64,000 nt of DNA from Agathobaculum massiliense. GTDB lineage: Bacteria > Bacillota > Clostridia > Oscillospirales > Butyricicoccaceae. This document shows positions 1-17,746 of the stretch, piece after piece (within the stretch, counting starts at the first letter, position 1; each line of letters begins with the position of its first letter). The notes below the pieces were generated by a model that saw only the letters and a program-made list of their open reading frames with translations, made no database searches and was not told where the DNA came from. The position numbers and the translations under genes are program-made. The stretch spans positions 2,356,001-2,420,000 of the forward strand of contig NZ_OMPN01000001.1 of NCBI RefSeq assembly GCF_900291975.1. Reading direction: 5' to 3'.

Positions 1-3000
1 TTCGCTTCGGACAGGCTGAGTTCCAGCGTGTCAAGCTGCTTTTCGATATGCGCCCGGGCGTGCTCCGGGGAAAGCGGGATTTTTTCAAACTGGCTATGCC
101 CGATGATCACCGCGTCATAATCCCCTGTGGCGATCCGCGCACAAAATGCAGGGCGGTTCTGTTTGGACAGGTCATCTTCCCGCGCCACAAGGATATGTGC
201 GCCGGGATATAATTGCTGGAATTCCGCGCCCCACTGCTCGGTCAGGCTGTTTGGCACAACGAACATCGGCTTGTGGGCAAGCCCCAGCCGCCGCAGTTCC
301 ATCGCGCCCGCTGCCATCGTCCATGTTTTCCCCGCGCCAACACAATGCGCCAGCAGGGTATTGCCGCCGTAGAGGATGCGGGCAACCGCGTTGCGCTGGT
401 GTTCTTTCAAGGTAATGTTCGGGTTCATGCCGGGGAAAGAGAGGTAATCCCCGTTATAGGTGCGCGGGCGGGTGTGGTTAAAATGCTCGTTGTAGTAGCG
501 GACCAGACGCTCGCGCCGTTCCGGGTCTGCAAAAATCCAGTCTTTGAACGCCTGCCGCAGCGCGTCCTGCTTCCCGCGCGCCTTGATGGTCTCCTGTTGG
601 TTGGGGATACGCTTTTCCTTGCCGTCTACGATTTTCACATCGAATATCTGCACATCCCGCAGGTTGAGCGCCCGTTCCAGCAGTTCATAGCCGTTCGCGC
701 GGCTTGTCCCGAATTTGGTGTGGGCAAAGGAATTGCGGTCGTTGTCCGCGCCCTTGTTGGATACATACCAGCTTTTGATTGCATCCGAGTAAGATACGGT
801 TATCTTATTTGCAGCATAGAACGGCGGGTGCAGGACTTCACGCACAAACTGCGTAATATCTTCGGGCGGAATCCACGCAGTGCCGAGCCGCACGCTGATA
901 TCCGAAGCGGTGAGCGGTTCGGGCAGGACGCTTTCCAGCATTTTCACGTTAAATGAGAAAGCGGGGTCTTTTTCCGCGTATGCCTGCGCGGTTTTCAGCT
1001 TTGCGCGGATATTGCCGGAAAGGTACTCGTCCGCCGGCTGCCAGACGCCGCTTACCGGTTCGCGGAAAATCTGCCCGTGCAGCGCGGAAATGATCTGCCC
1101 CTCCGGCGTCCCGCCCAGCAGGCGGGACATATAAGCAAAGTCGATTTCCCCGCGTTCCGCAAGGGATAAACCCAGCGCATCCTGCGGCGTATCCGCGCTG
1201 GTCACGGCAATATGCGGCCGGATCGTGCGCAGGGTGAAGATATCGCTTTTGCCTTTGACGTTCTGCTCATCGTCCAGCTCCTCCAATGCCAGCAGCAGCG
1301 GATAGCCTGCGTCCCGTGAAAAGGCGCGGCGGTTGGCGGTATCGTGGAGATAGCCGTGCTTTTTGACAAAGGCGTCGTACTGCCCGTTCAGCGTACGCTG
1401 CAGCCCGTGCAGCGTGTCATCATCACAACCTTCGGTCTGTGCTATGATCAAATCGCGCACGGTTTTTCGCAGGCCGATCATGCCGCGGGCGCGCTGCGAT
1501 GCGGTTTCCTTATATCCTGTAGGCTCATCCCTGCCAGCGGCGCGGAAAAACACCGCCCCGTCCTTGATGAAATAGCTATAATCTTCAACCTCTTCATCCG
1601 GGGTACTTCCTGTATTTTGCGATGTGTTCCACTGGAACACATCCGCAGCGCCGCGCACCGGCAGCTTCTCCAGCGCCCCGATATGCCGTACCGCTTCTGC
1701 AAGCTGCCCCTTCAGGTCTGCACCCGGAATCGGCGCGCAGGTGGTATCATAGCCGTATCTGGTGCTTTCCATCTTCATTTCACCCAAGACCATTTCCGGG
1801 TGGGAGATGAAATAACGGTTCATGGAAAGCCCGTCTGGATTTTGCCCCAGCTGTACCCACTCAGTCTCGGTCTCCGGCGGCGTTTCCCGCTTTTGCAGGA
1901 ACAGGATATCCGTTGTCACCTCTGCGCCGGCATTGGCTTTGAACGCATTGTTTGGCAGACGGATAGCGCCCAGCAAATCCGCCTTCTGCGCAAGCAGGCG
2001 GCGAACGTGTGTGTCTTTCTTATCCATTGTGCCTTTGGAGGTGATGAAAGCAGCGACGCCGTTCGGCTTTACTTTATCCAGTGATTTCATAAAGAAATAG
2101 TCGTGTATGAGCAGATGGTCTTTGTTATATGCCTTATCGTTCACGCGATAATCACCGAACGGGACGTTGCCGATGGCAAGGTCGAAAGTGTTGTCCGGAA
2201 ATGCGGTATTTTCAAAACCGGATACAGTGATATCCGCACTGGGATAGAGCTTTTGGGCAATGCGGCCCGTGATGCTGTCCAGCTCCACGCCGTACAAACG
2301 GCTGTTTCTCATTCCCTCCGGCAGCATACCGAAGAAGTTACCAGTACCGCAGGACGGCTCCAGAATGCTTTCCGGTGCAAGCCCCATGTGCTCTACGGCG
2401 TCATAGATAGCACGGATCACCGTGGGGCTGGTGTAATGCGCGTTTAAGGTGGAAGCGCGCGCGGCTTTATATTCATCGTCTGTCAGCAGCGCTTTAAGCT
2501 CGGTATATTCATCAGCCCACGCCGGATTCCCCGCATCAAACGCCTGCGGGATCGCGCCCCAGCCGGTATAACGGGCGAGCGCCGCCTGTTCGTCCGGCGC
2601 AGCCGGGCGGTTCTCCTGCTCCAGCGTGTGCAGCAGACGGAGTGCGGCAATGTTGTCACGATACCGTTCGCGCGGACGGGATACGCCGAGCAGTTCATCC
2701 GTAATATGATAATTGCCCGCGTTCCGCGCCGCCCCTTCCGGTGTGTTCGGCTGGAACACATCCGCGCTTGCAGCAGGTTCGGGGACAGCGTGACGGAAGC
2801 CGTCCAACTCCTGTTGATACAGGCTGCGGCAGAGCCGCGCGACTTCGGTCCATGAATACGACAGTTCCGTACCGAACCTGTCCTGAATCTCAACGGAAAA
2901 ACCGGATGGTGTGGCGATATACTCGGCTTCATCCCCTGTTAAAAGGGTGAAATTGCCGGTTGTACCCGCGTGGGCGTCCGAGAGATGCTGCGCAATTTCC

Positions 3001-6000
3001 GCATTGCCCAGACCGTCCCGCAGGAGGCGGGCGATGGCGTCCTTGTCCGCCTGTGACAGCAGGCCGTGCTCGCTGGTGAGCGTTTCCCGCAGATCGTCGT
3101 TTGTATTTTCGATATCCATAGTCAGGGTGTCTATGACGGGTGTATTTCGGGCGTCCTGAGACAACCGGCCCTCGAATACAGCTTTGGCGATGGGCGACAG
3201 TTCCGTACCCTCCGCGCCGACTTCTTTCAGCGTGATTCCTGCGGGGCTGACGCCGGAAATGATGTGCGCCGCTTTGTTCCAGTAAACCACTGTCCCAACC
3301 TGATAGGCGGGTGCAAGTGGGTCATACGGCGCTGGTATTGCCTGCGTGGTTTCCTCCAGTGTGTTCCCCTGGAACACATCGTGGGAGAGGGCTGCGGCAG
3401 CAGCCTGTACGGCTTCCTCAAGTGTGTTCCCGTGGAACACATCGTCGGCAGAAGGCTGCGTGTTCCGATGGAACACATCTTCGGCAGCGGTCTGCGTGTT
3501 CGACTGGAACACATCGTGAGCGGCGGGCTGTGTGTTCGACTGGAACACATCGTCAGCGACAGGCTGCGTGTTCGGTTGGAACACATCGTCAGCGGCGGGT
3601 TGCGTGTTCCCTTGGAACACATCGCGCGAGGGGTCTGCGGTAGCGGCCTGTACAGCTTCCTCCAGTGTGTTCCCTTGGAACACATCACGTGAAGGGTCTG
3701 TGGCAGCAGCCTGCACGGCTTCCTCCAATGTGTTCCCTTGGAACACATCATCAGATGAAACGGGCTGTTCTGCGCTTGCGTGCAGGGCAGGATAGGTTTC
3801 ATCAAATACCACTTTATGCAAATGGTTATGGAAAGAACTGAGGTCATAATAAAGCCGGAGGAACTCGGTATCCCCGATACTCACCGCCGCGCGCCGTGTA
3901 GCAGCATCCGCTTCTATACGGGCATTTTCCTCGTCTGAATTCATGCAGGCATTTTGATAGGCAGCGTCAGCCATGACCTTTTCTTTAATCACTGGCAGGT
4001 ATTGTTCATAAATCTCTTTTACCGTCCGCACCGTCCGTTTGGGCGCGGCGCTTTTCGATGTGTTCCGTCGGAACACATCGTCAGCGACAGGCTGCGTGTC
4101 CGACTGGAACACATCGTGGGAGGGGTCTGTGGCAGCGGCCTGCCCAATGGTTGCTTCATCCGGTGTAGGGGATACAATGGACGCCTCGCGCAGCTGCGGC
4201 AGGATGCTTTGATATTGGGGATACCGACTCAGGAAATCCAGCACCCCGCCATCACCATCGCCAATATCCTGCCGCTCCGTATAGGTCTGCCCATCAGGCA
4301 TAACGATAGTAAATTTGGTTTTATCATAGCCAAGAAACCGCTCGTTTTCAGGATCGTCCGCTTCGTACCAGTCCTCCCATGTGCCATGTTTTTTCAAAGC
4401 GGCGTTTTTCCCTGCAACCTGTTCGTCATCCGCCTGCTTCATCAGGCGGTCAAACTCATAGATGGAATACCGTTTCCCATCTTCAAATAGGGGGCTTTCA
4501 CTCCATTCGCAGAAGATATAGGGTGTGCTGTCCGGTTCATATGGATTTTCCCCCGTGGTTTGGGGCATGACAGGCGGGACTGCATGGCCTGTCTTGCCCT
4601 CCGGCACAGAAGGCGCAGCCATTTCCTCCTGTTCCGCCAGCGCGTTCCCCTCGCGCACCTTATCAGCCGCCGCCTGTGCCTCTGCAGGCAGGTATCGGTT
4701 GTTCTGCACCAGCGCGGCAACACGTTTCGCGGCATGTTCCCATGTAAGGTGGATATCCGGACAGCCATTTTTTCTATAATGAATCCCTTTCCCGTCATAA
4801 TCTTCCCAACTGTGGGAAGAGCCGGACAGCGCGTGGGATCGCCCGCCGATGCCATATTCCTCCTGCAGGAAGTCTTTCTGCTCTTTCGCAGAGTGTCCCT
4901 GCTGGAAGAAAGCGTAGATACGGTTTTTCCCGCCTGCGACGTTTCCGCCGTCCGAAAGGGAAACATCAATTTCATCGTCTGTGATAAACCGGCCGATCTC
5001 CGGGATTTTCGTCATTCCCGAAGCAAAAGTCCTGCGGGGAAGGGATAGATCATGCAGGCCATCCATGATGTCCCTGGTTTTATGATGCCGAAACCGCAGC
5101 AGGTCATGGTTTCGGTCATAGGCGGACAGGAACGCGGCATATTCCTCTGTGAACGTCCGGAGAAATTCCGGATTTTTCAGCTGTCCCGCGAGCCATGCTG
5201 TTTCTTCCGGATAATTGTTTCGCCGTACCCCGGACAGGCTGGGCAGATAGCCTTGCGCCTCTTCACCGAAGTCATGGTAAAGGAACCAGATTTTTTCCGA
5301 AAGCTGGCGGCGTTCGTATCCCTCGGCTTCCGCGACCTCGACATTGGTGGCAAACTGTCCGGTTCCTATAAGATGCCCGATCCGTCCTGCCGCCTGTTCC
5401 CATGGGATGAGATACGCCCCGGCGTCATACCGTGTGGAGCGCCCGCGGGAAAGATGGACGCCGTCCCTGTCATACCACGCGGCGAACATTTCCGCGCCGA
5501 TGGAAAAGCCATTGCCGCCGTGGTAGATGGTTTGCAGATCGGCTGCAATCCCGCCGATGGGTTTCTGCTTTTCAAAGGCTGCGACGATACATTCGCGGTG
5601 GCGGTCTGTGTTGCTGCCGAGCCGCAGCACATGGTCTATTTCCGCCTGCGTAAATTCATGCCGGCCGAGCCGTGTGTTCCGATGGAACACATCTTCGGCG
5701 GCGGTCTGCGTGTTCGGTTGGAACACATCTTCGGCGGCTGGTTGCGTGTTCGACTGGAACATATCCGCAGCGGCGGGCTGCGTGTTCGACTGGAACACAT
5801 CCCGCGCAGGGATTTCCTCCGGCATCAGCGAAAGCTGAACCGCGGGCGGTTCGTCAGAAAAAGGGAAAGCAGCAGGTTTTTTCAACTCTGCCGCTTTCCC
5901 TTTTTCATTATTACTTAACAGTAAATCCAGTCCCGCCGCACGATCTCCAGCGCGCAGTGGCGGTAGTTGTTCATCAGCCCCACCCATTTCATGGGGTCTG

Positions 6001-7097
6001 TCCGTTTCAGGTTTTCGTCCGTCCCGTCCTGCGCCGCCTGCGCCCGGATGAGCCGCTCCATATCCTCTTCCGCGCTCTCCGCGACCTCGTTGAGGTACTG
6101 GGTCAGCGTCCCTTTCACCACCATATCCTGATAGGATTCCGGATCGTTCTTCATGAGGTATCTCAGATGCTCCTGCCCGAACGGCCCGTACTCCTTCGGC
6201 GTCTTGTCTGGGTATTCCTTCCCGTCCGTCCCTGTGTAGTAGGTGATCTCCTCCGTTTCGGCCTGCGCGGTCTGGCCCTGCATTCCTTCGGTCATTTTGC
6301 CCATCTCCTTCCGTAAGCTGCCGGTCTTTTTCCGTATCCTTATTATACACCCCCGCGCCCTGTCCCGCAATACGGTTTCGCGTTGTAAATCGAAAAAGTT
6401 TACACCCATCCAAGTGTTTCATTGTCCGCTCAATGGATGATAATACGGTTTTAACGGACTGTTGGGTTACAGAACCCAAGCGGTGCAGGTCCGCTGTGGA
6501 AAGCCCTCCGGTTGGGATAAAGCGGACATAAGGCGCGGGGTCTATGCCGCACCGGCGCAGCACGCAGTAGGCGGCGGACGCCACTGCCGCACGGATAAAA
6601 TCAAGGTCCTGCGTGATGCTGTCCGCGTCATGGAACGCCTGATTCTGCGCCGCGATAAACAGGTTATCAGAAAAGCTGTCCAGTAAACGGGTATCTTCAC
6701 CGGACTGCGCGGAAAGGTTATCCAGTACGGCGTCCTGCGCGTCTGCGCGCATCTCCCAAATGTACGGCGGCGGGATGTTATCCCGCCGGGGGAGGGTATC
6801 TGAAATATCAAACAGGTACTGCACCTGTTCATGCCCATCCGCATGGCGCTGCACGACGCCGATGCCGGATGAATCGCGCGCTATCCTGCGCAGCGTGCGG
6901 TTGTTCCAAAACGGCAGGCCGGCGCAGGCGGTGGCGTCCGGCCGCTGGTTGAAGATCATGACCTGCGAGGGGAAATCGTACTTGTACAGCCTTGCCGCTG
7001 TGTCGAGGAACTGCATCCAGCTTTCCGGTGATTCGCGGAAACGGCGGACCGTCTGCTCCATCTGCTCTTTGAGCTGGTCTGGTGTGAATTTTGCCAT
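1..7097 (-). CDS. Giant helicase / N6-adenine methylase of a mobile element (3' end outside window)
   Basis: About 2,365 codons lie in the window, open without a stop from an ATG at 7097 (SD AAAGGAAA) to the left edge. I recognise the very large SNF2-type helicase/DNA methylase proteins of Clostridia conjugative elements. In order: an N-terminal module (FPSQVMIFNQRPDATA, about residues 48-63); a low-complexity stretch that is dual-coded with a tnpV-like gene (about 267-394); repeat-rich linkers; methylase motif I (LEPSCGTGNFFGM, about 1580); methylase motif IV as GNVPFG instead of NPPY (about 1640); and a helicase Walker A-like AHCVGAGKT (about 2247) followed by FVVPNSLTEQW. Seventeen palindromes in the linkers encode D-V-F-x-x-N-T. 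Expected to modify and unwind element DNA in the cytoplasm; the biochemical role is unproven. Family call is sure, exact function is not. Confidence 0.85.
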   Translation of the reverse strand, partial: MAKFTPDQLKEQMEQTVRRFRESPESWMQFLDTAARLYKYDFPSQVMIFNQRPDATACAGLPFWNNRTLRRIARDSSGIGVVQRHADGHEQVQYLFDISDTLPRRDNIPPPYIWEMRADAQDAVLDNLSAQSGEDTRLLDSFSDNLFIAAQNQAFHDADSITQDLDFIRAAVASAAYCVLRRCGIDPAPYVRFIPTGGLSTADLHRLGSVTQQSVKTVLSSIERTMKHLDGCKLFRFTTRNRIAGQGAGVYNKDTEKDRQLTEGDGQNDRRNAGPDRAGRNGGDHLLHRDGREGIPRQDAEGVRAVRAGASEIPHEERSGILSGYGGERDADPVPQRGRGERGRGYGAAHPGAGGAGRDGRKPETDRPHEMGGADEQLPPLRAGDRAAGLDLLLSNNEKGKAAELKKPAAFPFSDEPPAVQLSLMPEEIPARDVFQSNTQPAAADMFQSNTQPAAEDVFQPNTQTAAEDVFHRNTRLGRHEFTQAEIDHVLRLGSNTDRHRECIVAAFEKQKPIGGIAADLQTIYHGGNGFSIGAEMFAAWYDRDGVHLSRGRSTRYDAGAYLIPWEQAAGRIGHLIGTGQFATNVEVAEAEGYERRQLSEKIWFLYHDFGEEAQGYLPSLSGVRRNNYPEETAWLAGQLKNPEFLRTFTEEYAAFLSAYDRNHDLLRFRHHKTRDIMDGLHDLSLPRRTFASGMTKIPEIGRFITDDEIDVSLSDGGNVAGGKNRIYAFFQQGHSAKEQKDFLQEEYGIGGRSHALSGSSHSWEDYDGKGIHYRKNGCPDIHLTWEHAAKRVAALVQNNRYLPAEAQAAADKVREGNALAEQEEMAAPSVPEGKTGHAVPPVMPQTTGENPYEPDSTPYIFCEWSESPLFEDGKRYSIYEFDRLMKQADDEQVAGKNAALKKHGTWEDWYEADDPENERFLGYDKTKFTIVMPDGQTYTERQDIGDGDGGVLDFLSRYPQYQSILPQLREASIVSPTPDEATIGQAAATDPSHDVFQSDTQPVADDVFRRNTSKSAAPKRTVRTVKEIYEQYLPVIKEKVMADAAYQNACMNSDEENARIEADAATRRAAVSIGDTEFLRLYYDLSSFHNHLHKVVFDETYPALHASAEQPVSSDDVFQGNTLEEAVQAAATDPSRDVFQGNTLEEAVQAATADPSRDVFQGNTQPAADDVFQPNTQPVADDVFQSNTQPAAHDVFQSNTQTAAEDVFHRNTQPSADDVFHGNTLEEAVQAAAAALSHDVFQGNTLEETTQAIPAPYDPLAPAYQVGTVVYWNKAAHIISGVSPAGITLKEVGAEGTELSPIAKAVFEGRLSQDARNTPVIDTLTMDIENTNDDLRETLTSEHGLLSQADKDAIARLLRDGLGNAEIAQHLSDAHAGTTGNFTLLTGDEAEYIATPSGFSVEIQDRFGTELSYSWTEVARLCRSLYQQELDGFRHAVPEPAASADVFQPNTPEGAARNAGNYHITDELLGVSRPRERYRDNIAALRLLHTLEQENRPAAPDEQAALARYTGWGAIPQAFDAGNPAWADEYTELKALLTDDEYKAARASTLNAHYTSPTVIRAIYDAVEHMGLAPESILEPSCGTGNFFGMLPEGMRNSRLYGVELDSITGRIAQKLYPSADITVSGFENTAFPDNTFDLAIGNVPFGDYRVNDKAYNKDHLLIHDYFFMKSLDKVKPNGVAAFITSKGTMDKKDTHVRRLLAQKADLLGAIRLPNNAFKANAGAEVTTDILFLQKRETPPETETEWVQLGQNPDGLSMNRYFISHPEMVLGEMKMESTRYGYDTTCAPIPGADLKGQLAEAVRHIGALEKLPVRGAADVFQWNTSQNTGSTPDEEVEDYSYFIKDGAVFFRAAGRDEPTGYKETASQRARGMIGLRKTVRDLIIAQTEGCDDDTLHGLQRTLNGQYDAFVKKHGYLHDTANRRAFSRDAGYPLLLALEELDDEQNVKGKSDIFTLRTIRPHIAVTSADTPQDALGLSLAERGEIDFAYMSRLLGGTPEGQIISALHGQIFREPVSGVWQPADEYLSGNIRAKLKTAQAYAEKDPAFSFNVKMLESVLPEPLTASDISVRLGTAWIPPEDITQFVREVLHPPFYAANKITVSYSDAIKSWYVSNKGADNDRNSFAHTKFGTSRANGYELLERALNLRDVQIFDVKIVDGKEKRIPNQQETIKARGKQDALRQAFKDWIFADPERRERLVRYYNEHFNHTRPRTYNGDYLSFPGMNPNITLKEHQRNAVARILYGGNTLLAHCVGAGKTWTMAAGAMELRRLGLAHKPMFVVPNSLTEQWGAEFQQLYPGAHILVAREDDLSKQNRPAFCARIATGDYDAVIIGHSQFEKIPLSPEHARAHIEKQLDTLELSLSEA
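1623..1641. repeat. In-gene 19-bp palindrome (arms TGTGTTC/GAACACA)
   Basis: Single copy inside the helicase CDS with centre cactg. In the helicase frame it reads D-V-F-Q-W-N-T. It lies in the stretch following the methylase motifs. Confidence 0.9.
2742..2760. repeat. In-gene 19-bp palindrome (arms TGTGTTC/GAACACA)
   Basis: Single copy inside the helicase CDS with centre ggctg, read as D-V-F-Q-P-N-T. It lies about 400 bp upstream (in gene direction) of the methylase motif I codons. Confidence 0.9.
3360..3747. repeat. Cluster of nine in-gene palindromes, 36- or 63-bp spacing
   Basis: Copies start at 3360, 3423, 3459, 3495, 3531, 3567, 3603, 3666 and 3729. Arms are YGTGTTC and GAACACA with five variable central bases. 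Spacing is exactly 36 bp (12 codons) in the middle and 63 bp (21 codons) at the flanks, so the helicase frame is always kept. The protein repeat is D-V-F-x-x-N-T-Q-P-x-A-x, or the longer form containing L-E-E-A-V-Q-A. Central codons vary (Q-S, Q-P, H-R, H-G, Q-G) while V is GTG, F is TTC and N is AAC throughout. Confidence 0.92.
4059..4113. repeat. Pair of in-gene palindromes 36 bp apart
   Basis: Copies start at 4059 (centre cgtcg, D-V-F-R-R-N-T) and 4095. The second has one arm change (cgtgtCc), giving D-V-F-Q-S-D-T. Both are in the helicase frame. Confidence 0.9.
5673..5799. repeat. Cluster of four in-gene palindromes at 36-bp spacing
   Basis: Copies start at 5673, 5709, 5745 and 5781, exactly 12 codons apart, in the linker after the dual-coded region of the helicase gene. 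The copy at 5745 ends ACATA instead of ACACA, turning V into M in the peptide. The others keep both 7-bp arms, apart from Y at the first base. Confidence 0.92.
5915..6295 (-). CDS. tnpV: TnpV-like protein nested in another frame of the helicase gene
   Basis: This 126-residue protein is encoded wholly inside the helicase coding sequence on the same strand, one frame away. It has its own SD (GGAAGGAG, 9 nt before ATG at 6295). The C-terminal part (TDPMKWVGLMNNYRHCALEI and an aromatic end WIYC) matches what I know of TnpV, a small transposon-encoded protein of unclear role. The N-terminal half has the family's Y-x-G-x-D-G-K-E-Y-P-D pattern. The helicase frame is open through the whole overlap and is low complexity there (Gly, Arg, Glu, Asp), as expected if the TnpV frame carries the selected protein. 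Whether it is translated cannot be seen from sequence. Confidence 0.65.
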   Translation of the reverse strand: MTEGMQGQTAQAETEEITYYTGTDGKEYPDKTPKEYGPFGQEHLRYLMKNDPESYQDMVVKGTLTQYLNEVAESAEEDMERLIRAQAAQDGTDENLKRTDPMKWVGLMNNYRHCALEIVRRDWIYC

Positions 7098-7174
7098 ATC
7101 AATTTTCCTTTCTGCCAGTTTCGCACTGGCGGCATATTAAAATAAAAACATACTGCGGACAATATGCTTTATTT

Positions 7175-7669
7175 TCAGATGGCGGTGCCGGAGGATAACA
7201 GTTCGCCCAGCCTGTGAACGCTTTCCCAAGCGCTTTGCCGATGTATATGATGTTTGCGGGCGATTTCCGCAATGGATTTCCCGCGCAGGAAATAATCTAT
7301 GAACCGTTCTTTCTGCGCCGGGGTCAGCCCGCCGCTGTGCAGCAGCAGGAGCGCCGCACGGACTGCGAGCCGGCGCTGTTCCCACTGCAGCAGCGCTGTA
7401 CACGGCTCGGGGTCTGACGCCGGCAGCGCGGCGGCTACATCGTCAAAATCTGCATCGGTTTTCATGTAGCCGTAGCGATAATCTGTTTGATGTTGTTCAA
7501 AGAACATGCCGTCCGAGAGTTCCTTGATCTGCCGGAAGTCCTCGGCGGTGTATTCCGGGTTTTCACGCAGGTAGTCCTCCAGACGGACCACCTGTGTTGT
7601 GCCGTCTGCGAAGCAGTATACAATCCCGTCGCTTTCCCTGTTGACCGCCCATTCGTTTACTCTGCCCAT
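7175..7669 (-). CDS. Sigma-70 region 4-like HTH protein
   Basis: 164 residues. The start at 7669 is set by a strong SD (AGGAGGT, 8 nt away). The C-terminal third reads L-T-P-A-Q-K-E-R-F ... G-K-S-I-A-E-I-A-R-K-H-H-I-H-R-Q-S-A, the pattern of a sigma region 4 helix-turn-helix. No region 2 is visible, so it is probably an accessory transcription factor rather than a full sigma. It ends 77 bp before the giant helicase gene and begins just behind a terminator hairpin, so its expression may need read-through. Such proteins are common in Clostridia elements; the target promoter is unknown. Confidence 0.65.
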   Translation of the reverse strand: MGRVNEWAVNRESDGIVYCFADGTTQVVRLEDYLRENPEYTAEDFRQIKELSDGMFFEQHQTDYRYGYMKTDADFDDVAAALPASDPEPCTALLQWEQRRLAVRAALLLLHSGGLTPAQKERFIDYFLRGKSIAEIARKHHIHRQSAWESVHRLGELLSSGTAI

Positions 7670-7693
7670 GGCGCTGCAACCTCCTTTTTTAGC

Positions 7694-7730
7694 ACAAAAA
7701 AAGAGCATCCAGCCATTTGGATGCTCTTTG
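7694..7730 (-). terminator. Intrinsic terminator just before the sigma-like gene
   Basis: Hairpin AAAGAGCATCC/GGATGCTCTTT with a minus-strand T-run that runs almost directly into the SD of the 7669 start. It either separates this gene from upstream transcription or works as an attenuator. Confidence 0.8.
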
Positions 7731-8060
7731 CGGGCGTTGCCCGTGGGCTTCCGCCCAGTATACAGATTATCACAGGCAGGGTGGACAAAGCGGACAAGTT
7801 GCAGGGAAAAAGAAAGTTTTTTCGCCTTGCCGTTCATACCGGTATTGTTATCAGAAATATAATTAAACAGGTATAAATGAAGGGTATTTTATTATTTTAA
7901 GACAAATTACATCCTGCCTGAACCGCATACAGCCCTAATACCATTGCCCCTCTTTTCTACCACCCCCCGAAAACAGGCGTATGGTGTGTCAAGGGCGCGT
8001 GCGGGGCTGTGTAAACCGCAGATCCCGCGCCGTGACGGCGGCATTCCCCGGTTTTGGGCA
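7731..8060. other. Gene-free spacer between two minus-strand terminators
   Basis: About 330 bp. It contains an AT-rich stretch (about 7850-7910) that could hold the promoter for the sigma-like/helicase unit, though no clear -35/-10 pair is visible. The rest is GC-rich with no convincing ORF, repeat or RNA. Confidence 0.5.
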
Positions 8061-8121
8061 GAAAAAAAGCACGGCCATAAGCCGTACTGCATAAACGCTG
8101 GTACGGCTGTCAGGTCGTGCT
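8061..8121 (-). terminator. Terminator overlapping the end of the winged-helix gene
   Basis: Nested inverted repeats AGCACG/CGTGCT and AGCCGTAC/GTACGGCT followed on the minus strand by a run of seven T. The hairpin includes the last codons and stop of the upstream gene (stop at 8110-8112). Confidence 0.75.
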
Positions 8122-9351
8122 TGTATTTTTTTGTCCGGCTTCCTCGGCAAGACGCCGGCAGCGTACATCTTTGATCCGCTCCAGCCACTCCTGCTCCCAG
8201 TCGCTGAGCGGCTTGGCGCGCTGATTTCCCGCGGACGCGCGCTCCTGCATCCATTTCAATAGCACCGCGCGCAGATAGGCGGCAGGGTTGCCGGCGCGGG
8301 ACAGGTCTATTTTCGTGCGGAGGAACGATGACATATCGTCATATGTGAAAGCGGACGCCAGCGGCGCACGCTCATCAAGGGGGACGGTACGTTTGCTGAC
8401 CGTAAGCTCCGGCGCGTTTTCGATCTCCGCCAGCGCGCCCGCTGCCATATCTACAAGCTTGGCGTCATACTGCCATTCCAGACGGCCTGCGTCAATGCGC
8501 CGCCGCACTGCTTCTATTTCCGCCTGAGACGGTGCATACGGCGCTTTTCTCGCAGGGGCAGAGGAGGGCACGGAAGCATTGGAACCGCGCCTGTGCGCCG
8601 TTTTGGAGCAGGAGGGGCGCAGTGCGCGCAGCTTCTTCCCAGCATGGCTTAAATACCCCGCTATCGTTTTTACCGTGGATACCGTACCGTCCGCGTGATG
8701 GTTTGTAAGGTATGGGGTTTCCTGATCCGGTTCTGCCAGCAGCTCATACTGATAGGAAAAGCCGTCCTCCTGCCCCGTGGGGTAACGGTGCTGTTTAAGC
8801 AGGCCGCTGATCTTCAGCGCGCGCCATACCGAGGAAAAGCGTTTAAGGCGCTCCGCACAAAACGCACGCACGCCCTCCGGGTTCAGGTGGAAATGCGGGA
8901 TCAATGTCAGGTGTAAGACCACGCCGAAAAGCCCTTTGACTGCCAAAGGGATGGTTTTGCTGCGCAGCACGGCATTGGGGATACGGGTAAAATCGCGCAT
9001 GGTATCGCCGGCGGGGCGGAAACGGCAGTCCCCGCCCGTGCGCCCGGACGGCGCGGCATACTGATATGCAGGGGAATCCTCCGGCAGCTGCAGCAGGTCG
9101 TATGTATGGACAAATGCGCCGCTATTGCCCGTCTGGGAAAAGCGGTGCTTCAGATATCCGGCTTCCAGCAGGTCATGCCACGCTTTTTCCAGCGCATAAC
9201 GGCTTTCGCAGAACTGCACCAGCTGGGACTTGGAGAGCCGCCATCCCGGCATGCCGCAGAACGACGATATGACAAGGTACAGCCCCTTGGCTGCAAGGGA
9301 CAGGCCTTTGCTGCGCAGGGCATGGCTGCACCCCATTGTAAATCCGGACAT
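8110..9351 (-). CDS. Tandem winged-helix protein, putative replication initiator
   Basis: 413 residues; start at 9351 behind AGGAGGTG. Two similar winged-helix modules are visible: about residues 8-65 (A-L-R-S-K-G-L-S-L-A-A-K-G-L-Y ... L-L-E-A-G-Y-L) and about 115-185 (V-L-R-S-K-T-I-P-L-A-V-K-G-L-F ... L-K-I-S-G-L-L). This two-wing layout is typical of plasmid and element replication initiators. The C-terminal third (P-L-S-D-W-E-Q-E-W-L) resembles the tails of such proteins in Clostridia elements. It follows the sigma-4-like gene by 14 bp. Role in element replication is inferred from fold and context. Confidence 0.6.
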   Translation of the reverse strand: MSGFTMGCSHALRSKGLSLAAKGLYLVISSFCGMPGWRLSKSQLVQFCESRYALEKAWHDLLEAGYLKHRFSQTGNSGAFVHTYDLLQLPEDSPAYQYAAPSGRTGGDCRFRPAGDTMRDFTRIPNAVLRSKTIPLAVKGLFGVVLHLTLIPHFHLNPEGVRAFCAERLKRFSSVWRALKISGLLKQHRYPTGQEDGFSYQYELLAEPDQETPYLTNHHADGTVSTVKTIAGYLSHAGKKLRALRPSCSKTAHRRGSNASVPSSAPARKAPYAPSQAEIEAVRRRIDAGRLEWQYDAKLVDMAAGALAEIENAPELTVSKRTVPLDERAPLASAFTYDDMSSFLRTKIDLSRAGNPAAYLRAVLLKWMQERASAGNQRAKPLSDWEQEWLERIKDVRCRRLAEEAGQKNTSTT

Positions 9352-9365
9352 TTGAAACACCTCCT

Positions 9366-9785
9366 TCATGTCTTTTGTGCTGTGCCTTGCGGCAATGTTT
9401 TCAAGTATCGTTCCGCGATCTTGCGGACGCTGCTGGCGGTATTGTCCCCGCCGACCTGTGCTGCGATCTGACGCCACTGCAGGTCGTCTACATAGCGGTA
9501 AAGCAATATCTGCCGCAGCAGGGGGTCTTCTATCCCATTGATAAATGCGTTGAGCTTGGCATACTCCAGAATACTTTCGAGCACGCGGTCCATGATGACC
9601 CGTTTCAGTTCGTCTATAATGGATATGTACAGGCTGACATTATCCTGCAAAACGCCGATATGCGGCAGACCGGATATGGAAGAAGTGCGGCCGGAAACGG
9701 CGGATTCCAGTTCGTGCAGCCGCCGCAGGTCATGCTCCAGTTCACGGTTCAGGCTCCTCAGATGTTCCAATTCCTCTTTGCTCAT
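9366..9785 (-). CDS. Coiled-coil plus sigma-4-like regulator (phage ArpU/DUF1492 type)
   Basis: 139 residues; ATG at 9785 with SD GAGGT. The N-terminal part is a heptad-rich helix (E-E-L-E-H-L-R-S-L-N-R-E-L-E-H-D-L-R). The C-terminal part has the signature D-P-L-L-R-Q-I-L-L-Y-R-Y-V-D-D-L-Q-W-R-Q-I-A, followed by a helix rich in S-S-V-R-K-I. This is the layout of small phage/element regulators with a sigma region 4-like HTH. It sits directly downstream of the only intergenic copy of the palindrome (9808-9838), which could be its operator. Specific function unknown. Confidence 0.6.
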   Translation of the reverse strand: MSKEELEHLRSLNRELEHDLRRLHELESAVSGRTSSISGLPHIGVLQDNVSLYISIIDELKRVIMDRVLESILEYAKLNAFINGIEDPLLRQILLYRYVDDLQWRQIAAQVGGDNTASSVRKIAERYLKTLPQGTAQKT

Positions 9786-9807: not shown

Positions 9808-9838
9808 TATCCGTGTGTTCCATTGGAACACACGGATA
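9808..9838. promoter_or_regulatory. 31-bp perfect palindrome containing the repeated motif
   Basis: Arms tatccgtgtgttcca and tggaacacacggata pair perfectly over 15 bp around a single T. This is the only copy of the TGTGTTC-N5-GAACACA motif outside a gene, and it has longer arms than any in-gene copy. It lies between the SSB stop (9851) and the SD of the 9785 gene. No T-run follows, so it is more likely a protein-binding site than a terminator. Confidence 0.7.
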
Positions 9839-9850
9839 TGGGCGCGGCGG

Positions 9851-10582
9851 TCAGATGGGGGAATCTGTATCATCGTCCGAAATCCCCTCGGGGATGCTGT
9901 ACGCAGCGGCGGGCGCAGGCTCCGCCGCAGGGGGCGCTGCCTGTGTGGTATGCGGGATTTTGATCACACAGTCCTCGCCCGGTCTGATAGACGCTGTGAC
10001 CGAGCGCGCTGCAGGGGCGTAATGCGCAGGGACAGCGACCTCCGTGATGGTGTACTCACCGGCAGGCAGGCCGACGATATGCGCGCCGCTGTCCGTCCCT
10101 GCCATGTTGCGCTGGACGGGCGTGCCGTCCGCGCGGTACAGGTCATAGGCTGCGCCGGACAAAAGCATGCCGGTTTCAGCATCCAGCGCCAGGATCTGCA
10201 AACTGCCGCGCGCGGCGTCCCCCTGCTTGTCCGCAGATTCACGGTCCAGCCGTTGACGCTTGGTTTCCCCGAACTGGATCTGGTCGCACAGGATTTCAAA
10301 TGCAATATGGTTGCTGCCCTGGTCATCCGCCCATATGCGGGAGGTGACCTGCCCGATCACGACAGCCAGTGTGCCTTTGGAAAACCATTGGGATACAAAC
10401 TTCGCTTTTTCACGCCATGCCACGCAAGGGATGAAGTCTGTTTTCTCTTCGCCGGAGGTCTGCCGTGCGACTGCCAGCTTAAAAAAGCAAACGGGGATGT
10501 CCCCGCTGACATACCGCAGCTCCGGATCGCGGGTGAGCCGTCCCATAAGGACGGTGTTGTTGATGGAAATTGCGTTGCTCAT
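9851..10582 (-). CDS. ssb: Single-stranded DNA-binding protein fused to a Cna_B/SpaA-like domain
   Basis: 243 residues; start at 10582 behind GAGGAGG. Residues 1-110 are an SSB OB-fold (N-T-V-L-M-G-R-L-T-R-D-P-E-L-R-Y ... D-F-I-P-C-V-A-W). Residues about 128-205 look like a prealbumin-type Cna_B domain: L-Q-I-L-A-L-D-A-E-T-G, G-A-A-Y-D-L-Y, L-P-A-G-E-Y-T-I-T-E-V. The lysine that forms isopeptide bonds in surface Cna_B domains is replaced (A-L-D instead of K-x-D), while the Glu in T-I-T-E is kept. After a Pro/Ala linker the protein ends D-D-D-T-D-S-P-I, like the acidic SSB tip. There is no signal peptide, so it is cytoplasmic. SSB call is firm; the fusion is unusual. Confidence 0.8.
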   Translation of the reverse strand: MSNAISINNTVLMGRLTRDPELRYVSGDIPVCFFKLAVARQTSGEEKTDFIPCVAWREKAKFVSQWFSKGTLAVVIGQVTSRIWADDQGSNHIAFEILCDQIQFGETKRQRLDRESADKQGDAARGSLQILALDAETGMLLSGAAYDLYRADGTPVQRNMAGTDSGAHIVGLPAGEYTITEVAVPAHYAPAARSVTASIRPGEDCVIKIPHTTQAAPPAAEPAPAAAYSIPEGISDDDTDSPI

Positions 10583-11335: not shown

Positions 11336-11336
11336 G

Positions 11337-11567: not shown

Positions 11568-11581
11568 AGTAGTTTCTCCGC

Positions 11582-12207: not shown

Positions 12208-12250
12208 AGGTCGTTCACCTGCCTTGTCTTGATTGCTGCGCATCGCGCAT

Positions 12251-12328
12251 GGTCATACACCGGAAGTTTGAGGAGGAAACATGCAGGGGGATAATCTGCG
12301 TAAGCGTTTCACCTTCCGGTGCATGACC
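12251..12328. repeat. Long-armed inverted repeat in leader of the small-gene cassette
   Basis: GGTCATACACCGGAAG (12251-12266) pairs with CTTCCGGTGCATGACC (12313-12328) with one mismatch over 16 bp around a 46-nt loop. It fills most of the gap between the methyltransferase stop and the small-gene cassette. No T-run; may be a leader structure or a processing site. Confidence 0.55.
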
Positions 12329-12381
12329 ACAGGCGATAGGCCCGTGGTTATTTTGCTTGTACGGTTGGCGGTTTCTTTATG

Positions 12382-13242: not shown

Positions 13243-13310
13243 ATTGTATTTCCTTTGTCCTTCGGACTATCGTTATTTGGGGGTCTGCACTTAAAAAGAG
13301 GGAGCATAAC

Positions 13311-14186: not shown

Positions 14187-14442
14187 TTTGCTCTCCGTTT
14201 GCCAGATCGTACTCTTCCGGCATCATCAACCGGCAGTCTGCTGGGCTGAATTGCTGATCCAACCAGCACAGTCGTAAGACATCTTCAATCTTGATCTGTT
14301 CCAAGAATGCTTTGTACTCCGCGCCGGTTAATTCCTCGGCATCGTCATCGCCCAGCGTCACACAAACGACATTTGAACATGGCGTGCCGTACTCGTCCTG
14401 TCCAAGCCCCTGCACCTCAAGGCAAATCCGAATTTTTTTCAT
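14161..14442 (-). CDS. Hypothetical protein (93 aa)
   Basis: ATG at 14442, overlapping the upstream gene by 26 nt; the SD is weak, so coupled translation is likely. Sequence M-K-K-I-R-I-C-L-E-V-Q-G-L-G-Q-D-E-Y-G-T-P, then an acidic helix (D-D-D-A-E-E-L-T-G-A-E-Y) and a Cys-containing C-terminal half. Similar short proteins occur in Clostridia mobile elements, but I know no function. Confidence 0.55.
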   Translation of the reverse strand: MKKIRICLEVQGLGQDEYGTPCSNVVCVTLGDDDAEELTGAEYKAFLEQIKIEDVLRLCWLDQQFSPADCRLMMPEEYDLANGEQNGQGTESD

Positions 14443-14995
14443 CGTTTTCGTCAAGCCCCCAGTATGCTTTATAAGAGTAACCGCATTGCGCCAACCGTTC
14501 AAAGGCAGAAGGGTATTTGCTGACCATGTGTGGAATATAGCAGATGTCGGTTTCCTTCAACAAATCTGTTGTTTCTCGAGAAAAATACAGCAACGGTGCG
14601 TAATAACAATCGTCATTGCTGATAACTGTCCACGACTGACCGAGTTCGTATGATATTTCTTCCAGAAACACACATACAGAATGTATAAACGCACTGACAT
14701 AAAGCTGTCCGATTGCCAACCGCCGCGCAACCCGATTGCTCCAGCAGCCGCCAATAATCGGAGGATGCTTAATCAGTATATCAATGATAGGATCTGGATT
14801 TTCTGTATCCTTGATAAGTATGCACGCTGTACATGCGTCCCGATTAAGGTGATAAGATACAGTTAATGTAGAATCACATTTTACGTTGCGTTGTTGACAG
14901 TACTCGATGATTGTATCCCTGAGCAGTATATCGTAGAAATCACAGAAGCCGTCATTTATGCAATTTATAACCACATGATTATCGTTTATTTCCAT
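14417..14995 (-). CDS. Hypothetical protein (192 aa)
   Basis: ATG at 14995 with SD GGGAGGG. Mixed alpha/beta composition, many Cys (N-C-I-N-D-G-F-C-D-F, D-A-C-T-A-C), and Y-L-P-like aromatic segments near the C-terminus (C-G-Y-S-Y-K-A-Y-W-G-L). No membrane segment or signal peptide. AT-richer than neighbouring element genes. No domain recognised. Confidence 0.55.
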   Translation of the reverse strand: MEINDNHVVINCINDGFCDFYDILLRDTIIEYCQQRNVKCDSTLTVSYHLNRDACTACILIKDTENPDPIIDILIKHPPIIGGCWSNRVARRLAIGQLYVSAFIHSVCVFLEEISYELGQSWTVISNDDCYYAPLLYFSRETTDLLKETDICYIPHMVSKYPSAFERLAQCGYSYKAYWGLDENDEKNSDLP

Positions 14996-15050
14996 GACGC
15001 AGCCCTCCCTATTGCTTTTCGCAGTCTGCTTCATTGGTTTGGTATACCTT

Positions 15051-15521
15051 TTACCGGTTGCTTCTGAGCCTTTTTATTAGCCAACCTATAAAGTGAAAGC
15101 AGATCCACACTGCATCAATGACCGCGCTTATAAAAAGGAAGTGTATCCAAACGGGAACTGTATCTCCAGCTATTGCGTAAGTTATAGTAAATAATGTCTC
15201 AAGTGAAATTCCATACAGGAAGAACGATAGCATTATTTTCAAGTTCGTCCTTAACCGCACAAAGATCCATGGCAGCATAATCAACCCGATCCAGACAGCG
15301 AATATAGCAGTCTCCACAACCGGCGATCCTACATAGGACGGCAGCGAAGTAATCGCCTGCTCTCGGCTATCATAGGACGCTATCCAAGCTGACATTATCG
15401 CATCCCAATAGGCATAGATGACATGGTTAAGCCAGAAGCCTATTGGGGTGCCGATAACCAGAGACGATATTCCTGTAACGATTTCCCATCGTAATGTCTT
15501 GCTTTTTAGAAGTTTATTCAT
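15051..15521 (-). CDS. Multi-pass membrane protein (156 aa), unknown
   Basis: Three to four hydrophobic helices, at about residues 14-36, 68-90, 93-115 and 124-150, with basic ends (R-L-R-T-N and K-R-L-R-S-N-R). No motif for transport or catalysis. It sits between the radical SAM gene and soluble small genes of the element. The SD is weak (AAAGGTAGG 15-20 nt upstream). Function unknown. Confidence 0.55.
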   Translation of the reverse strand: MNKLLKSKTLRWEIVTGISSLVIGTPIGFWLNHVIYAYWDAIMSAWIASYDSREQAITSLPSYVGSPVVETAIFAVWIGLIMLPWIFVRLRTNLKIMLSFFLYGISLETLFTITYAIAGDTVPVWIHFLFISAVIDAVWICFHFIGWLIKRLRSNR

Positions 15522-15544
15522 TGCTTTTGCAGCCAGCCTACCTT

Positions 15545-16447
15545 TCAGCTTCTCCGTGGATCATACCTTGCAAAATCCGGTTCGCTTCGAAAGATCGGCT
15601 TGTTATTGCACCAACGCTGCAAGAGCCTGATCTCCCGTGGCGCATTTGGTTTGTCATAGATCATGACATAGGGGGTATATCCCATATCGCGCAGCGTATA
15701 GATCCGAAAGAGGTTTTCGTCCATAGTGGTATTAAAATTCGTCAGCACATACACCGTCCCATATTCTCCATGACGGTTTTTTCGCCCGCTTTCCACATAC
15801 AACCGAAGTCCCCGCAGTACAGCGTCGGTTTCACGCAAAGAATCCCACGCAAAATGAATTTCTTTGATCCGCATCAAATTAAGTAAAGAAATGTTTTCTG
15901 CACAGAGCAGCCGCGCGTCCAGCCCTTGCGTAAAATCAATCTGCGCGCCGCTGCTTGCTAACTGGCTGAGTAAGTCGGTATGCTCAGGGCAAGCCAGCAG
16001 GTTAGGATCAAGCAGTTTGATGTTCTTTTGCCCGTTCCAGAATTCCGCAAGGTCTGCGACCTTTACACTTCTGCGGCCTTCTTTATGGGAAACAATGCAA
16101 AACTCACACCCACGGGGACAACCCCGCGACAAAAATCCATAGGCCGTATCCTGTGGCATCCAGTGATAAAGACCGTAATCAGGCATTATGTGCTCTATTT
16201 CATCCGGCAATGTATTATCTAACCCATATCCCGTACCGCCTTTGATAATTTCCGATGCGTTGCACGGCTCGGGTTCATCCTCGGAATATGTGTTATCAAA
16301 TACACGCGACATATACACGCGGTCATATTGTGCAAATCCGTCCCACCACTCCACATCATCACCAATGGATTTGTGATATGCGGATATTTTCATCAGCGCG
16401 AGGTTTGGCCAATTATGGCTGTCTACATCAATCAATCCGATTCTCAA
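15545..16447 (-). CDS. Radical SAM protein of mobile elements
   Basis: 300 residues from a TTG at 16447 that has GGAGG 10 nt upstream. An ATG at 16477 in the same frame lacks an SD, and family members I recall start close to the TTG (x-I-G-L-I-D-V-D-x-H-N). The SAM cluster motif is C-P-R-G-C-E-F-C at about residue 115. The N-terminal part resembles a B12-binding-like domain with D-V-D and N-L-A-L-M-K-I-S-A-Y-H-K. Substrate unknown; such proteins recur in Clostridia elements and phages, often near PAPS-reductase-like and methylase genes as here. Confidence 0.75.
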   Translation of the reverse strand: MRIGLIDVDSHNWPNLALMKISAYHKSIGDDVEWWDGFAQYDRVYMSRVFDNTYSEDEPEPCNASEIIKGGTGYGLDNTLPDEIEHIMPDYGLYHWMPQDTAYGFLSRGCPRGCEFCIVSHKEGRRSVKVADLAEFWNGQKNIKLLDPNLLACPEHTDLLSQLASSGAQIDFTQGLDARLLCAENISLLNLMRIKEIHFAWDSLRETDAVLRGLRLYVESGRKNRHGEYGTVYVLTNFNTTMDENLFRIYTLRDMGYTPYVMIYDKPNAPREIRLLQRWCNNKPIFRSEPDFARYDPRRS

Positions 16448-16558
16448 ATGTGTACGTCCTCCTGCCACAGGCAACATCTATCACTCGCTTACTCATACTT
16501 CACCCCCGGCGGGCATTTCCCATCTCCGATCTCGAATTTGATTTTCATCGGACAGACC

Positions 16559-17746
16559 TCAAGCATCGGTGTTTTCCTTGGGAGGGCATCGGTAAACCGT
16601 GTATTTTCCGCTTGAATTGTCGAGGGTATCGCCACCTGTCGCGTCAAGCAGAAGATCTTCAAGACCTGCGCCGTCGAGCACATCAATGGAATACAGTTTC
16701 CCATATAGCACGACGCCTTCTTCACCAAATCTTTCGCCATCCTCATCCATTCCGTAATCGATCCAGACGCGATCAAAGTGCATTTTATCGATTTCTGCTT
16801 GTGTCAGCGGCTTGTATGGTGCATTTGCATGGAATATCTGTTGGGGAGTTTGCTGTGTGTTCGGATGGAACACATCGGACGGAGCCGGTTCGCTCGACGC
16901 AGGGGCAGAGGGCTGCGTGTTCGGATGGAACACATCGGACGGAGCCGGTTCGCTTGACGCAGGGGCAGAGGGCTGCGTGTTCGGATGGAACACATCGGAC
17001 GGAGCCGGTTCGCTTGACGCAGGGGCAGAGGGCTGTGTGTTCGACTGGAACACACCAGACGGAGCCGATTCGCTCGGTAGCTTGCCGTGGTTAAGATAAA
17101 AATCATAGCTTGCCTGCTGCCTGTCCGCAGGCAGGCCGCTGAGGTCATAGGCCGTAGAAATTGATAGGCGGTTCGCCTTAATTTCCTCCATTAAAGAGGG
17201 GATCAGGTTGTTCAAAATGGAATCGTACTTGGCAATGCGGCTGGAGCTGATGTGCAGGCTTTGTGCCACAAGGTCACGGACGCGCCCGGCAATGCCGCGC
17301 TCCTGTTTCGTGCGGCGTGCAATATCCCGCATCTGACGGACTTCCTCCAGTTTGTCCCATGCCGTTTTTTCGCGCTGGCTGTTGGCTGTAATGAGCAGCA
17401 CCTGTTCGCGGACGTCACGATCTTCATCCGTCAGCTCTTCAACCGCACAGGGCAGAAATTCGTACTCATCCTTCCCAGCGGCCAGAAGCCGCCCCACCGC
17501 TGCATGACGGCGATGACCGGACAGAATCTTGTACTTGCCGTCCGGCAGCGGTGTTACAATAAGGTTGCTTAAGATGTGTCCCGCAAGCTCAATCGCAGTC
17601 TGAAGCTCTTCCAGCTCCTGCATGGAGTAAAAGTTATCTTCCGATGGAACGAGATCATAGTAGCTGATCCTGCGGATCGGCTGATCTTTTGCCGGTGCAG
17701 AAGAGAGGGAGGACTGCATCAGCATATCTGTAATAGCAAATCCCAT
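16559..17746 (-). CDS. parB: ParB-like partition protein with embedded palindromes
   Basis: 395 residues; ATG at 17746 overlaps the parA stop region and is probably coupled. The N-terminal domain has the ParB/Spo0J box K-I-L-S-G-H-R-R-H-A-A-V-G-R-L (about residue 75), which in chromosomal ParB binds CTP, followed by E-E-L-T-D-E-D-R-D-V-R-E-Q and an HTH around R-V-R-D-L-V-A-Q-S-L-H-I-S-S-S-R-I-A-K-Y. Between residues about 230 and 300 lie four peptide repeats (D-V-F-H-P-N-T-Q-P-S-A-P-A-S-S-E-P-A-P-S) whose DNA carries the palindrome shared with the helicase gene. A decayed fifth repeat reads Q-I-F-H-A-N-A. The C-terminus is an acidic domain. Confidence 0.88.
   Translation of the reverse strand: MGFAITDMLMQSSLSSAPAKDQPIRRISYYDLVPSEDNFYSMQELEELQTAIELAGHILSNLIVTPLPDGKYKILSGHRRHAAVGRLLAAGKDEYEFLPCAVEELTDEDRDVREQVLLITANSQREKTAWDKLEEVRQMRDIARRTKQERGIAGRVRDLVAQSLHISSSRIAKYDSILNNLIPSLMEEIKANRLSISTAYDLSGLPADRQQASYDFYLNHGKLPSESAPSGVFQSNTQPSAPASSEPAPSDVFHPNTQPSAPASSEPAPSDVFHPNTQPSAPASSEPAPSDVFHPNTQQTPQQIFHANAPYKPLTQAEIDKMHFDRVWIDYGMDEDGERFGEEGVVLYGKLYSIDVLDGAGLEDLLLDATGGDTLDNSSGKYTVYRCPPKENTDA
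16856..17054. repeat. Four in-gene palindromes in a 60-bp tandem repeat within parB
   Basis: Copies start at 16856, 16916, 16976 and 17036, exactly 60 bp (20 codons) apart. Arms are YGTGTTC/GAACACA; centres are ggatg (three times) and gactg. The whole 60-bp unit is nearly identical between copies, unlike the helicase clusters, suggesting recent tandem duplication. A decayed copy is visible at about 16823-16842. Confidence 0.92.

Follow-up and report, generated by a model that had tools for sequence, protein, structure and literature searches.

Palindromes repeated in frame within the coding linkers of a conjugative element: a candidate parS array for its ParB

Why should a short palindrome be repeated many times, in a single reading frame, inside the protein-coding DNA of a mobile element, and which protein might it serve? 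The question is raised by a 64-kb window, by which we mean the whole stretch of DNA that was analysed. Motif scans of the window recovered GTGTTC-N5-GAACAC in 20 exact copies and in two copies with one mismatch each, at 4096 (GTGTCC arm) and 5746 (GAACAT arm). The 22 copies of the original prediction were thus all found again at their coordinates, although two of them are inexact. When up to two mismatches were allowed, there were 23 matches as against 1.8 +/- 1.3 in shuffles (shuffle maximum 8); the 23rd, a two-mismatch match at 10369, was left out of the site count. A scan of the whole 3.2 Mb genome found no exact copy beyond the 20 in the window. A looser genome scan added one near-exact copy with one imperfect outer base (G000:C2:2329159), about 27 kb to the left of the window and distant from the array.

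Twenty-one of the 22 copies are inside coding sequence, most of them far from any gene start, and, as had been claimed, 17 are in a giant gene and four in parB, all 21 in one common frame. The giant polyvalent gene (1..7136, minus strand; LPD25, N6 methylase, ResIII helicase) runs past the left window edge to about -2070 and has 3,069 codons from stop to stop. Its sites, on the minus strand, comprise one at 1624..1640 (encoding DVFQWNT, with the symmetric core GTGTTCCA-N-TGGAACAC), one at 2743..2759 (DVFQPNT), an array of nine at 3361..3746 (starting at 3361, 3424, 3460, 3496, 3532, 3568, 3604, 3667 and 3730), a pair at 4060..4112 (4060 and the mismatched 4096, which encodes DVFQSDT) and a group of four at 5674..5798 (5674, 5710, the mismatched 5746, which encodes DMFQSNT, and 5782). 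The four parB sites (16857..17053, minus strand; starts at 16857, 16917, 16977 and 17037) are spaced by 60 bp and fall in a C-terminal tail of ParB that is modelled with low confidence. The remaining site is intergenic (9808..9838, assigned to neither strand): a perfect 31-bp palindrome with the core TGTGTTCCATTGGAACACA and a motif match at 9815. It is flanked by the adjoining ssb (9851..10582, minus strand; SSB and a SpaA-like domain) and by a downstream gene without a Pfam match (8113..9477, minus strand).

The predicted peptide D-V-F-x-x-N-T holds broadly: 20 of the 21 coding copies begin with D and the other, in parB, with G; one copy has M instead of V, and another has D instead of N. The spacing, said to be locked at 36, 60 or 63 bp, is so only inside local clusters. 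Relatives have spacings of 33, 42, 48, 96, 363 bp and more, so the pattern looks like tandem duplication rather than a rule.

Is it the peptide or the DNA that is kept? Codons were counted in 59 V-F-x-x-[ND]-T sites, defined by their peptide, from the window element and related elements (60 matches were found; AVSIGDT was set aside as chance). Because copies within arrays are duplicates, these counts are not independent, but in all 59 sites V was GTG (background 0.30), F was TTC (background 0.44) and T was AC[AG] (background 0.50), while the [ND] position was AAC in 58 and GAC in one. The first codon ended in T in every site. The central residues vary, as originally described, yet not with complete freedom, for the second central codon ended in G in 59/59. 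Variation persisted between CAA and CAG, CAT and CAC, and ACA and ACG. The giant gene and its homologue in genome G001 are identical at 1226 of 2417 aligned residues; where V is conserved, its codon is the same in 6/6 cases inside sites and in 10/44 outside, and the linker codons between copies vary. In parB genes with a second form of the site (type 2, as against type 1 for the form in the window), Leu was TTG in 14/14 (background 0.12) and Ser was TCC in 10/10 (background 0.16); this count used 14 of 17 genes, leaving out L112 and L121, which both read VSKSDT, and L120. The peptide itself is not conserved between the types: type 2 has S in place of F and D in place of N. A synonymous-site check, set in advance, looked for the peptide with freely varying codons and did not see it. 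The synonymous codons of the arms are invariant among homologues, in agreement with the proposal that selection acts on the arms and not on the peptide. The DNA is conserved beyond the level of the peptide.

All 60 DNA-defined copies in type-1 genes are in a single frame, a regularity that DNA selection alone does not demand. It would be expected if D-V-F-x-x-N-T were a short linear motif of the linkers, its codons frozen by recent duplication, and the flank N-T-Q-P-S-A, common to the parB and giant-gene copies, fits such a motif too. We nevertheless hold this reading to be very improbable: the site codons are frozen across homologues that have otherwise diverged in codons, perfect non-coding copies exist, type 2 changes two residues, the linker codons vary, and 16 giant-gene homologues are without such an array. 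The codon and homologue tests both disfavour it. Nor does a hairpin in the mRNA, whose 6-bp arms and 5-nt loop could pair, seem at all credible, since some copies are outside genes and a C-A mismatch breaks the stem in 8/14 type-2 parB messages (VSxLNT copies).

Palindromic DNA repeated in frame in genes is also known as PARCEL and as the Rickettsia RPEs. PARCEL occur in membrane proteins and RPEs in housekeeping genes, and the available text of PMC2996958 describes no link to parAB for either. A selfish element of the RPE kind would likewise be palindromic, in frame and placed in segments that are probably unstructured. Such a repeat is expected to spread over many host genes, whereas all 20 exact genomic copies are in the element; the absence of any exact copy elsewhere in the 3.2 Mb disfavours it. 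The unit, at 17 bp, is also short, and its family is linked to parAB, which leaves this explanation hardly tenable.

The link to parAB directs attention to the element's own partition proteins. The parA gene (17748..18521, minus strand) encodes a Walker-type ATPase (AAA_31/ParA, E=2.6e-46) and abuts parB (16559..17746, minus strand; start codon inferred). ParB scored 23.1 bits against ParB_N, below the Pfam cut-off of 26.3, and a phmmer search of the PDB with the single sequence found nothing. A profile of 36 sequences, drawn from 56 ParB-candidate frames, matched Noc/ParB/Spo0J structures. The ParB model has a confident core at about 12-218, which Foldseek matched to Noc/ParB (E about 1e-9) and KorB (1e-6). 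By this model ParB has the ParB/Noc/KorB fold, with an N domain of the CTPase type and an HTH; CTP binding is predicted, and the tail that holds the sites is probably disordered.

Sites of the same family accompany these genes well beyond the window. In 38 of 63 parA loci, for the most part from Firmicutes, a family palindrome fell between -40 and +120 relative to the 3' end of parA, as compared with 0.0069 per 160 b elsewhere, an enrichment of ~90x (67 loci were surveyed; L426, L430, L431 and L436 were dropped for incomplete parA). The other 25 loci had none there, and some of the closest ParA relatives (L372, L376-L378) are in this group; L374, L375 and L424 have two-mismatch forms. Twenty distant parB loci share only parA and parB out of 12 window proteins tested, with parA adjoining parB in 20/20, and 17 of them carry related palindromes. 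These 17 are of type 2 and all have an in-frame site in 5' parB (with one end mismatch in L120); phage terminase is present in 13. A second region with four type-2 sites and its own parB exists in the window's own genome. Outside the genus, no strict GTGTYC site occurred in the three loci with the nearest ParBs (G054, L104-L106). Near parA, L106 has TGTCCGAATCGGACA; it is apparently identical to L373, a one-mismatch match in the parA survey. Among plasmids, a 5 kb query from the giant gene had no match and ParB matched eight distant ParBs. ParB had no match in viral_contigs, and one phage record, Flavonifractor phage Cormatin, has a type-2 ParB (32.7% identity). The type-1 pattern was present in at least 120 stretches of viral_contigs, with one site each among the 80 listed, which is chance level; among the type-2 matches listed, some contigs had 3-5 sites.

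The proposed scan of related elements found sites, coding and non-coding, in genus-mates, which retain the former and add the latter upstream of parA. Perfect 19-bp copies lie directly upstream of parA at L065:331, L066:331, L069:8948 and L070:2344, and in L063/L064 a near-perfect one precedes the giant gene. Relative to parAB, the cis site lies at the parA 3' end in the 38 loci, upstream of parA in genus-mates, and inside parB in the window, where neither the junction of parA with parB nor the DNA upstream of parA had a site. In fragmented assemblies, G011 had sites and no ParB match, while in G001 parA was confined to contig ends, with no parB close by. The giant-gene homologue of G275 has a single site; a match in G140 looks like chance. 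None of 16 giant genes from other elements had a type-1 site; they were chosen from homologues in 57/197 genomes, whatever parAB their elements carry. Among these homologues, L469 has a single match to a looser family pattern and L476 an unrelated three-copy palindrome.

We consider it likely, from the sequence comparisons, that the palindrome is the parS of the element's ParB and that it has grown into an in-frame array within the coding linkers. Somewhat more cautiously, we favour a protein-coding centromere that is resized by in-frame duplication in the linkers of the largest protein and in ParB, the DNA being doubly selected and parB carrying its own array. The array sits in a conjugative element whose ParAB belongs to a family widespread among mobile elements, with a related palindrome often present where parA meets parB. 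We infer the following order of events. The half-site in this lineage is GTGTTCCA, and the site would have multiplied to about 23 copies, most of them placed by in-frame duplication in the linkers and the ParB tail, where extra residues are cheap. Every site would load a ParB clamp, and together the many sites would build a partition complex that extends over some 15 kb and includes, besides, the distant non-coding site. ParA would then move the excised element at cell division; in elements with a site upstream of parA, repression of parAB by ParB is a further possibility. The DNA that encodes these linkers probably also helps the inheritance of the element.

ParB might instead bind these sites chiefly to regulate, in the manner of KorB: by spreading from the copies in coding sequence it would repress the giant gene, parAB and ssb while the element is integrated, and partition would be secondary. 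The relatives' copies upstream of parA and of the giant gene, the intergenic site beside ssb and the model's match to KorB are compatible with this, and an integrated element requires partition only once excised. However, KorB operators are mostly at promoters, where one per promoter would do, and 21/22 copies are intragenic, mostly far from starts; parA moreover stays beside parB in 20/20 distant loci. We judge such a regulator unlikely. The chance that another DNA-binding protein of the element is the binder appears slight. Weak HTH matches, below cut-off, occur at 7178-7888 and 18616-18918, but neither protein was found (E 1e-5) in the 20 distant parB loci, 17 of which have palindromes. A replication protein, REP_ORF2-G2P, is present in 16/20 distant parB loci and 42/63 parA loci (28/38 of those with a family site). 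It is also present in L104-L106, which are without GTGTYC sites, and a search of positions 2260001 to 2420000 of the window's genome and of the type-1 loci L063-L071, L370 and L371 did not find it. It was set aside as a common neighbour that was not seen in the type-1 element regions searched.

How does a parS array in coding linkers compare with known systems? The chromosomal parS consensus is TGTTNCACGTGNAACA, whose sole exact match in the genome, at C2:1781245, is away from the element's sites; these differ from it in sequence and spacing, with another centre that is shorter by one base. The host's own TGTTTCACGTGAAACA occurs once, elsewhere than the element's sites. The half-site TGTTCCA resembles TGTTNCAC, which we take to be the parS consensus. 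In N15 (SopB centromeres) and RK2 (KorB operators), a mobile element carries multiple scattered sites for a ParB-family protein, as is predicted here; to our knowledge, those sites are fewer, and none is iterated inside a giant gene.

Sites inside genes have precedents. Of the ten parS predicted in Pseudomonas aeruginosa, nine are most likely within coding sequence, which the predicted ParB sites resemble; they are single sites, and the available text does not describe them as in-frame arrays (PMC4368675). In the repABC replicons of Alphaproteobacteria, parS lies between repA and repB or at the repB 5' end, and the authors hypothesize that extra parS are selected even inside coding sequences; copies are few, with no arrays in linkers in the text available (PMC9040568). 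Similar site numbers are on record for Myxococcus xanthus (22 parS; PMC3899335) and for Streptomyces coelicolor and Listeria innocua (up to 20-23; PMC7333895), but these parS are chromosomal and near the origin, and the accessible parts of both papers do not describe them as protein-coding repeats. A literature search, mostly of papers open without subscription, found no description of an in-frame coding parS-like array. parS in coding sequence is already known, and the in-frame array in linkers would be a new form of it.

If the reading is true, the array of ~20 in-frame copies shows that flexible protein segments offer evolvable room for cis-acting DNA. It also gives a sequence-level handle on the evolution of parS number, a question left open in the available text of PMC7333895. 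The half-site changes across ParB-site pairs of conjugative elements and prophages (GTGTCCGA, GTGACCGA, GTGTCCAA, GTGTTCAA and GTGTTCCA), which makes specificity switching testable. At two positions of the recognition helix, the three ParBs that face GTGTTCCA sites carry R and K, as against Q (30/33) and R (33/33) in the others. This change belongs to one clade and is a single event, co-occurring with the change of site.

The palindrome GTGTTC-N5-GAACAC occurred in the window (positions 2356001-2420000 of contig C2, genome G000) as 20 exact copies and two with one mismatch. Seventeen lay in the giant minus-strand gene, four in parB (16559-17746, minus strand) and one was intergenic, forming a perfect palindrome of 31 bp. 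The original prediction was therefore right about the total of 22 and its distribution, though two of the copies are imperfect. Allowing up to two mismatches gave 23 matches, compared with 1.8 in shuffled sequences. A scan of the whole 3.2-Mb genome added no exact copy to the 20; with GTGTTCCANTGGAACA and up to one mismatch, every genome copy fell within 2329159-2373053, an interval that starts some 27 kb outside the window's left edge and stops at window position 17053.

A relaxase of the MobA/VirD2 type is encoded left of the window, together with a VirD4-type coupling protein, a weak AAA/TraG-like match and a lysozyme-like protein; carbohydrate-transport genes lie beyond these conjugation-type genes. 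The giant gene's product carries LPD25, N6 methylase and ResIII helicase domains and is of the polyvalent kind described from Tn1549-like conjugative elements (PMC5512222). Because of these conjugation genes and the giant-gene type, the site-bearing region was called a putative integrative conjugative element, a name based on gene content. None of nine genes tested right of the 20-kb point had a mobile-element match, and these nine were taken as chromosomal. At 9851-10582 (minus strand), an SSB protein is joined to a SpaA (prealbumin-like) domain, an unusual pairing, and a 1,718-aa adhesin-like protein with many SpaA repeats (L364:13428-18581) sits between the relaxase and the coupling protein.

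If the DNA arms rather than the peptide are selected, as had been proposed, codons should be frozen wherever the palindrome dictates them. Eight genes or fragments of the window's kind (type 1), from four genomes, were searched for the peptide V-[FS]-x-x-[ND]-T; this returned 60 matches, one of which was discarded as chance. In the remaining 59, GTG, TTC and AC[AG] were invariant and AAC was used 58 times (GAC once), against background frequencies in the same genes of 0.30 for GTG, 0.44 for TTC, 0.55 for GAT, 0.55 for AAC and 0.50 for AC[AG]. All 59 had T ending the first codon and G ending the second central codon, while codons varied at positions that the palindrome does not dictate (CAA/CAG, CAT/CAC, ACA/ACG). 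Assuming just five independent sites, five frozen codons would arise by chance with a probability of ~10^-8.7. Selection on the DNA arms was thus supported. The two central residues do differ, but are not wholly free, since the second codon is always xxG: GTGTTCCANTGGAACAC would give Trp (TGG), and most copies carry TCG, CCG, CGG, GGG or another xxG that keeps the outer G. In our reading, these substitutions balance the needs of the DNA site against those of the protein.

Synonymous sites in homologues agreed. The window giant gene and its homologue in Agathobaculum butyriciproducens DSM 100391 (G001) share 1226 of 2417 aligned residues. Conserved V, F and N kept their codons at 10/44, 38/59 and 25/45 positions outside sites, and at 6/6 each inside; for T, whose third base is only half constrained, the values were 23/65 and 3/6. 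Neither GTGTTC-N5-GAACAY nor a comparable array was found in 16 giant-gene homologues of other elements, including a G000 paralogue and one G001 gene. The paralogue has one chance peptide (KVFDFNT); of the other genes, one matches the looser family pattern once and another holds three copies of an unrelated palindrome. The 60 DNA-defined copies in type-1 genes are all in the same frame, which would be explained most simply if they descend from one cassette. Repeat units in the window measure 36, 60 and 63 bp, the sizes first reported; spacings differ in relatives and so are not locked. The coding arrays probably grew by in-frame duplication.

A motif scan of related elements recovered both type-1 copies and more distant kin. 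Perfect 19-bp non-coding TGTGTTCCAWTGGAACACA lies directly upstream of parA at two loci each in G001 and Candidatus Agathobaculum pullicola, and a near-perfect non-coding copy precedes the giant gene in G001. This genome seems to hold two copies of the element type (C29 and C31, L063 and L064; ends of C1 and C2, L065 and L066); the first bases of C1 and C2 are already inside parA. Among 20 loci picked by distant parB homologues (28-41% identity), 17 carried type-2 palindromes, GTGTYC-N5-GRACAC (exceptions L104-L106, genome G054). In all 17 a palindrome lay in frame within the 5' part of parB (one end mismatch in L120), and in 14 of these loci Leu was TTG 14/14 (background 0.12) and Ser TCC 10/10 (0.16). 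Of 12 window proteins sought, only ParA and ParB occurred at all 20 loci, ParB by design of the locus choice; ssb occurred in one, the window 15548 gene in two and the others in none. The 20 stretches retrieved held 49 type-2 sites by the strict pattern. Of these, 23 lie within predicted genes and use the type-1 frame (~14 at the homologous parB position), nine use a second frame and are often found where genes begin, one uses the third, and 16 are intergenic. GTGTYCANNNTGRACAC gave 146 sites in 29 of 87 family genomes, versus four for the reversed control. Terminase homologues in 13 of the 17 loci, and terminase and portal proteins in L118, indicate that most type-2 loci are prophages. L118, from the same genus, is a prophage with a dispersed site set: the type-2 palindrome lies within both parB and the portal gene and close to where a replication-protein gene starts, and the terminase gene contains a variant. 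In a second mobile region of G000 (C2:1927249-1964937, L367-L369), four type-2 palindromes accompany a separate parB at 1934149 as well as homologues of terminase and of the replication protein.

A ParA search of genome contigs gave 67 loci, 63 with a usable parA end. These were mostly from Firmicutes; four were from Pelagibacteraceae, none with a site. The family pattern GTGWYC-N5-GRWCAC (up to one mismatch) lay at -40 to +120 of the parA 3' end in 38/63, compared with 49 in the remaining 1.14 Mb of these loci (0.0069 per 160 bases). Among its forms, GTGTCCGATTCGGACAC came from Paenibacillus alvei and GTGTTCAATTTGAACAC from Sporomusa silvacetica. The two type-1 loci scored as misses because their site precedes parA. 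Though strong, the association is not universal. A replication protein was present in 42/63 loci and in 28 of the 38 site-bearing ones; it was not found in the type-1 regions searched.

A profile of 36 ParBs matched Noc, ParB and Spo0J structures. In the AlphaFold model of window ParB (mean pLDDT 69.9), confidence is high over a core of about residues 12-218, and Foldseek matched the model to Noc and ParB (E ~1e-9) and KorB (1e-6). The four parB sites fall in the model's low-confidence tail, consistent with disorder, although a shallow alignment could likewise lower confidence. At two positions of the recognition-helix region, R and K are found in the three ParBs with GTGTTCCA sites; of the other 33, 30 carry Q at the first position and all 33 carry R at the second. 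A few residues of the DNA-binding domain are known to switch ParB/Noc specificity (PMC7383237); that the residue change tracks the site change is, in a single clade, suggestive only.

The window system works like ParABS in the features testable here, with parA (17748-18521, minus strand) beside parB, and ParB binding and an inheritance role are predicted. Most likely, ParB would nucleate at each palindrome and load as a clamp; once the element is excised, the clamps on it would build a partition complex, which ParA would move. Both parS within genes (PMC4368675, PMC9040568) and chromosomal clusters of ~20 parS (PMC3899335, PMC7333895) have been described; our literature search found no description of a comparable in-frame coding array. 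Near parA-parB junctions of L373-L429, conserved 17-bp palindromes (GTGTCCGAWTCGGACAC with its variants) apparently make up a candidate general parS family. L396, L397, L399 and L429 share another palindrome, the even TTGAACAGCCGTTCAA, located 72-84 bp past parA and close to the 5' end of parB.
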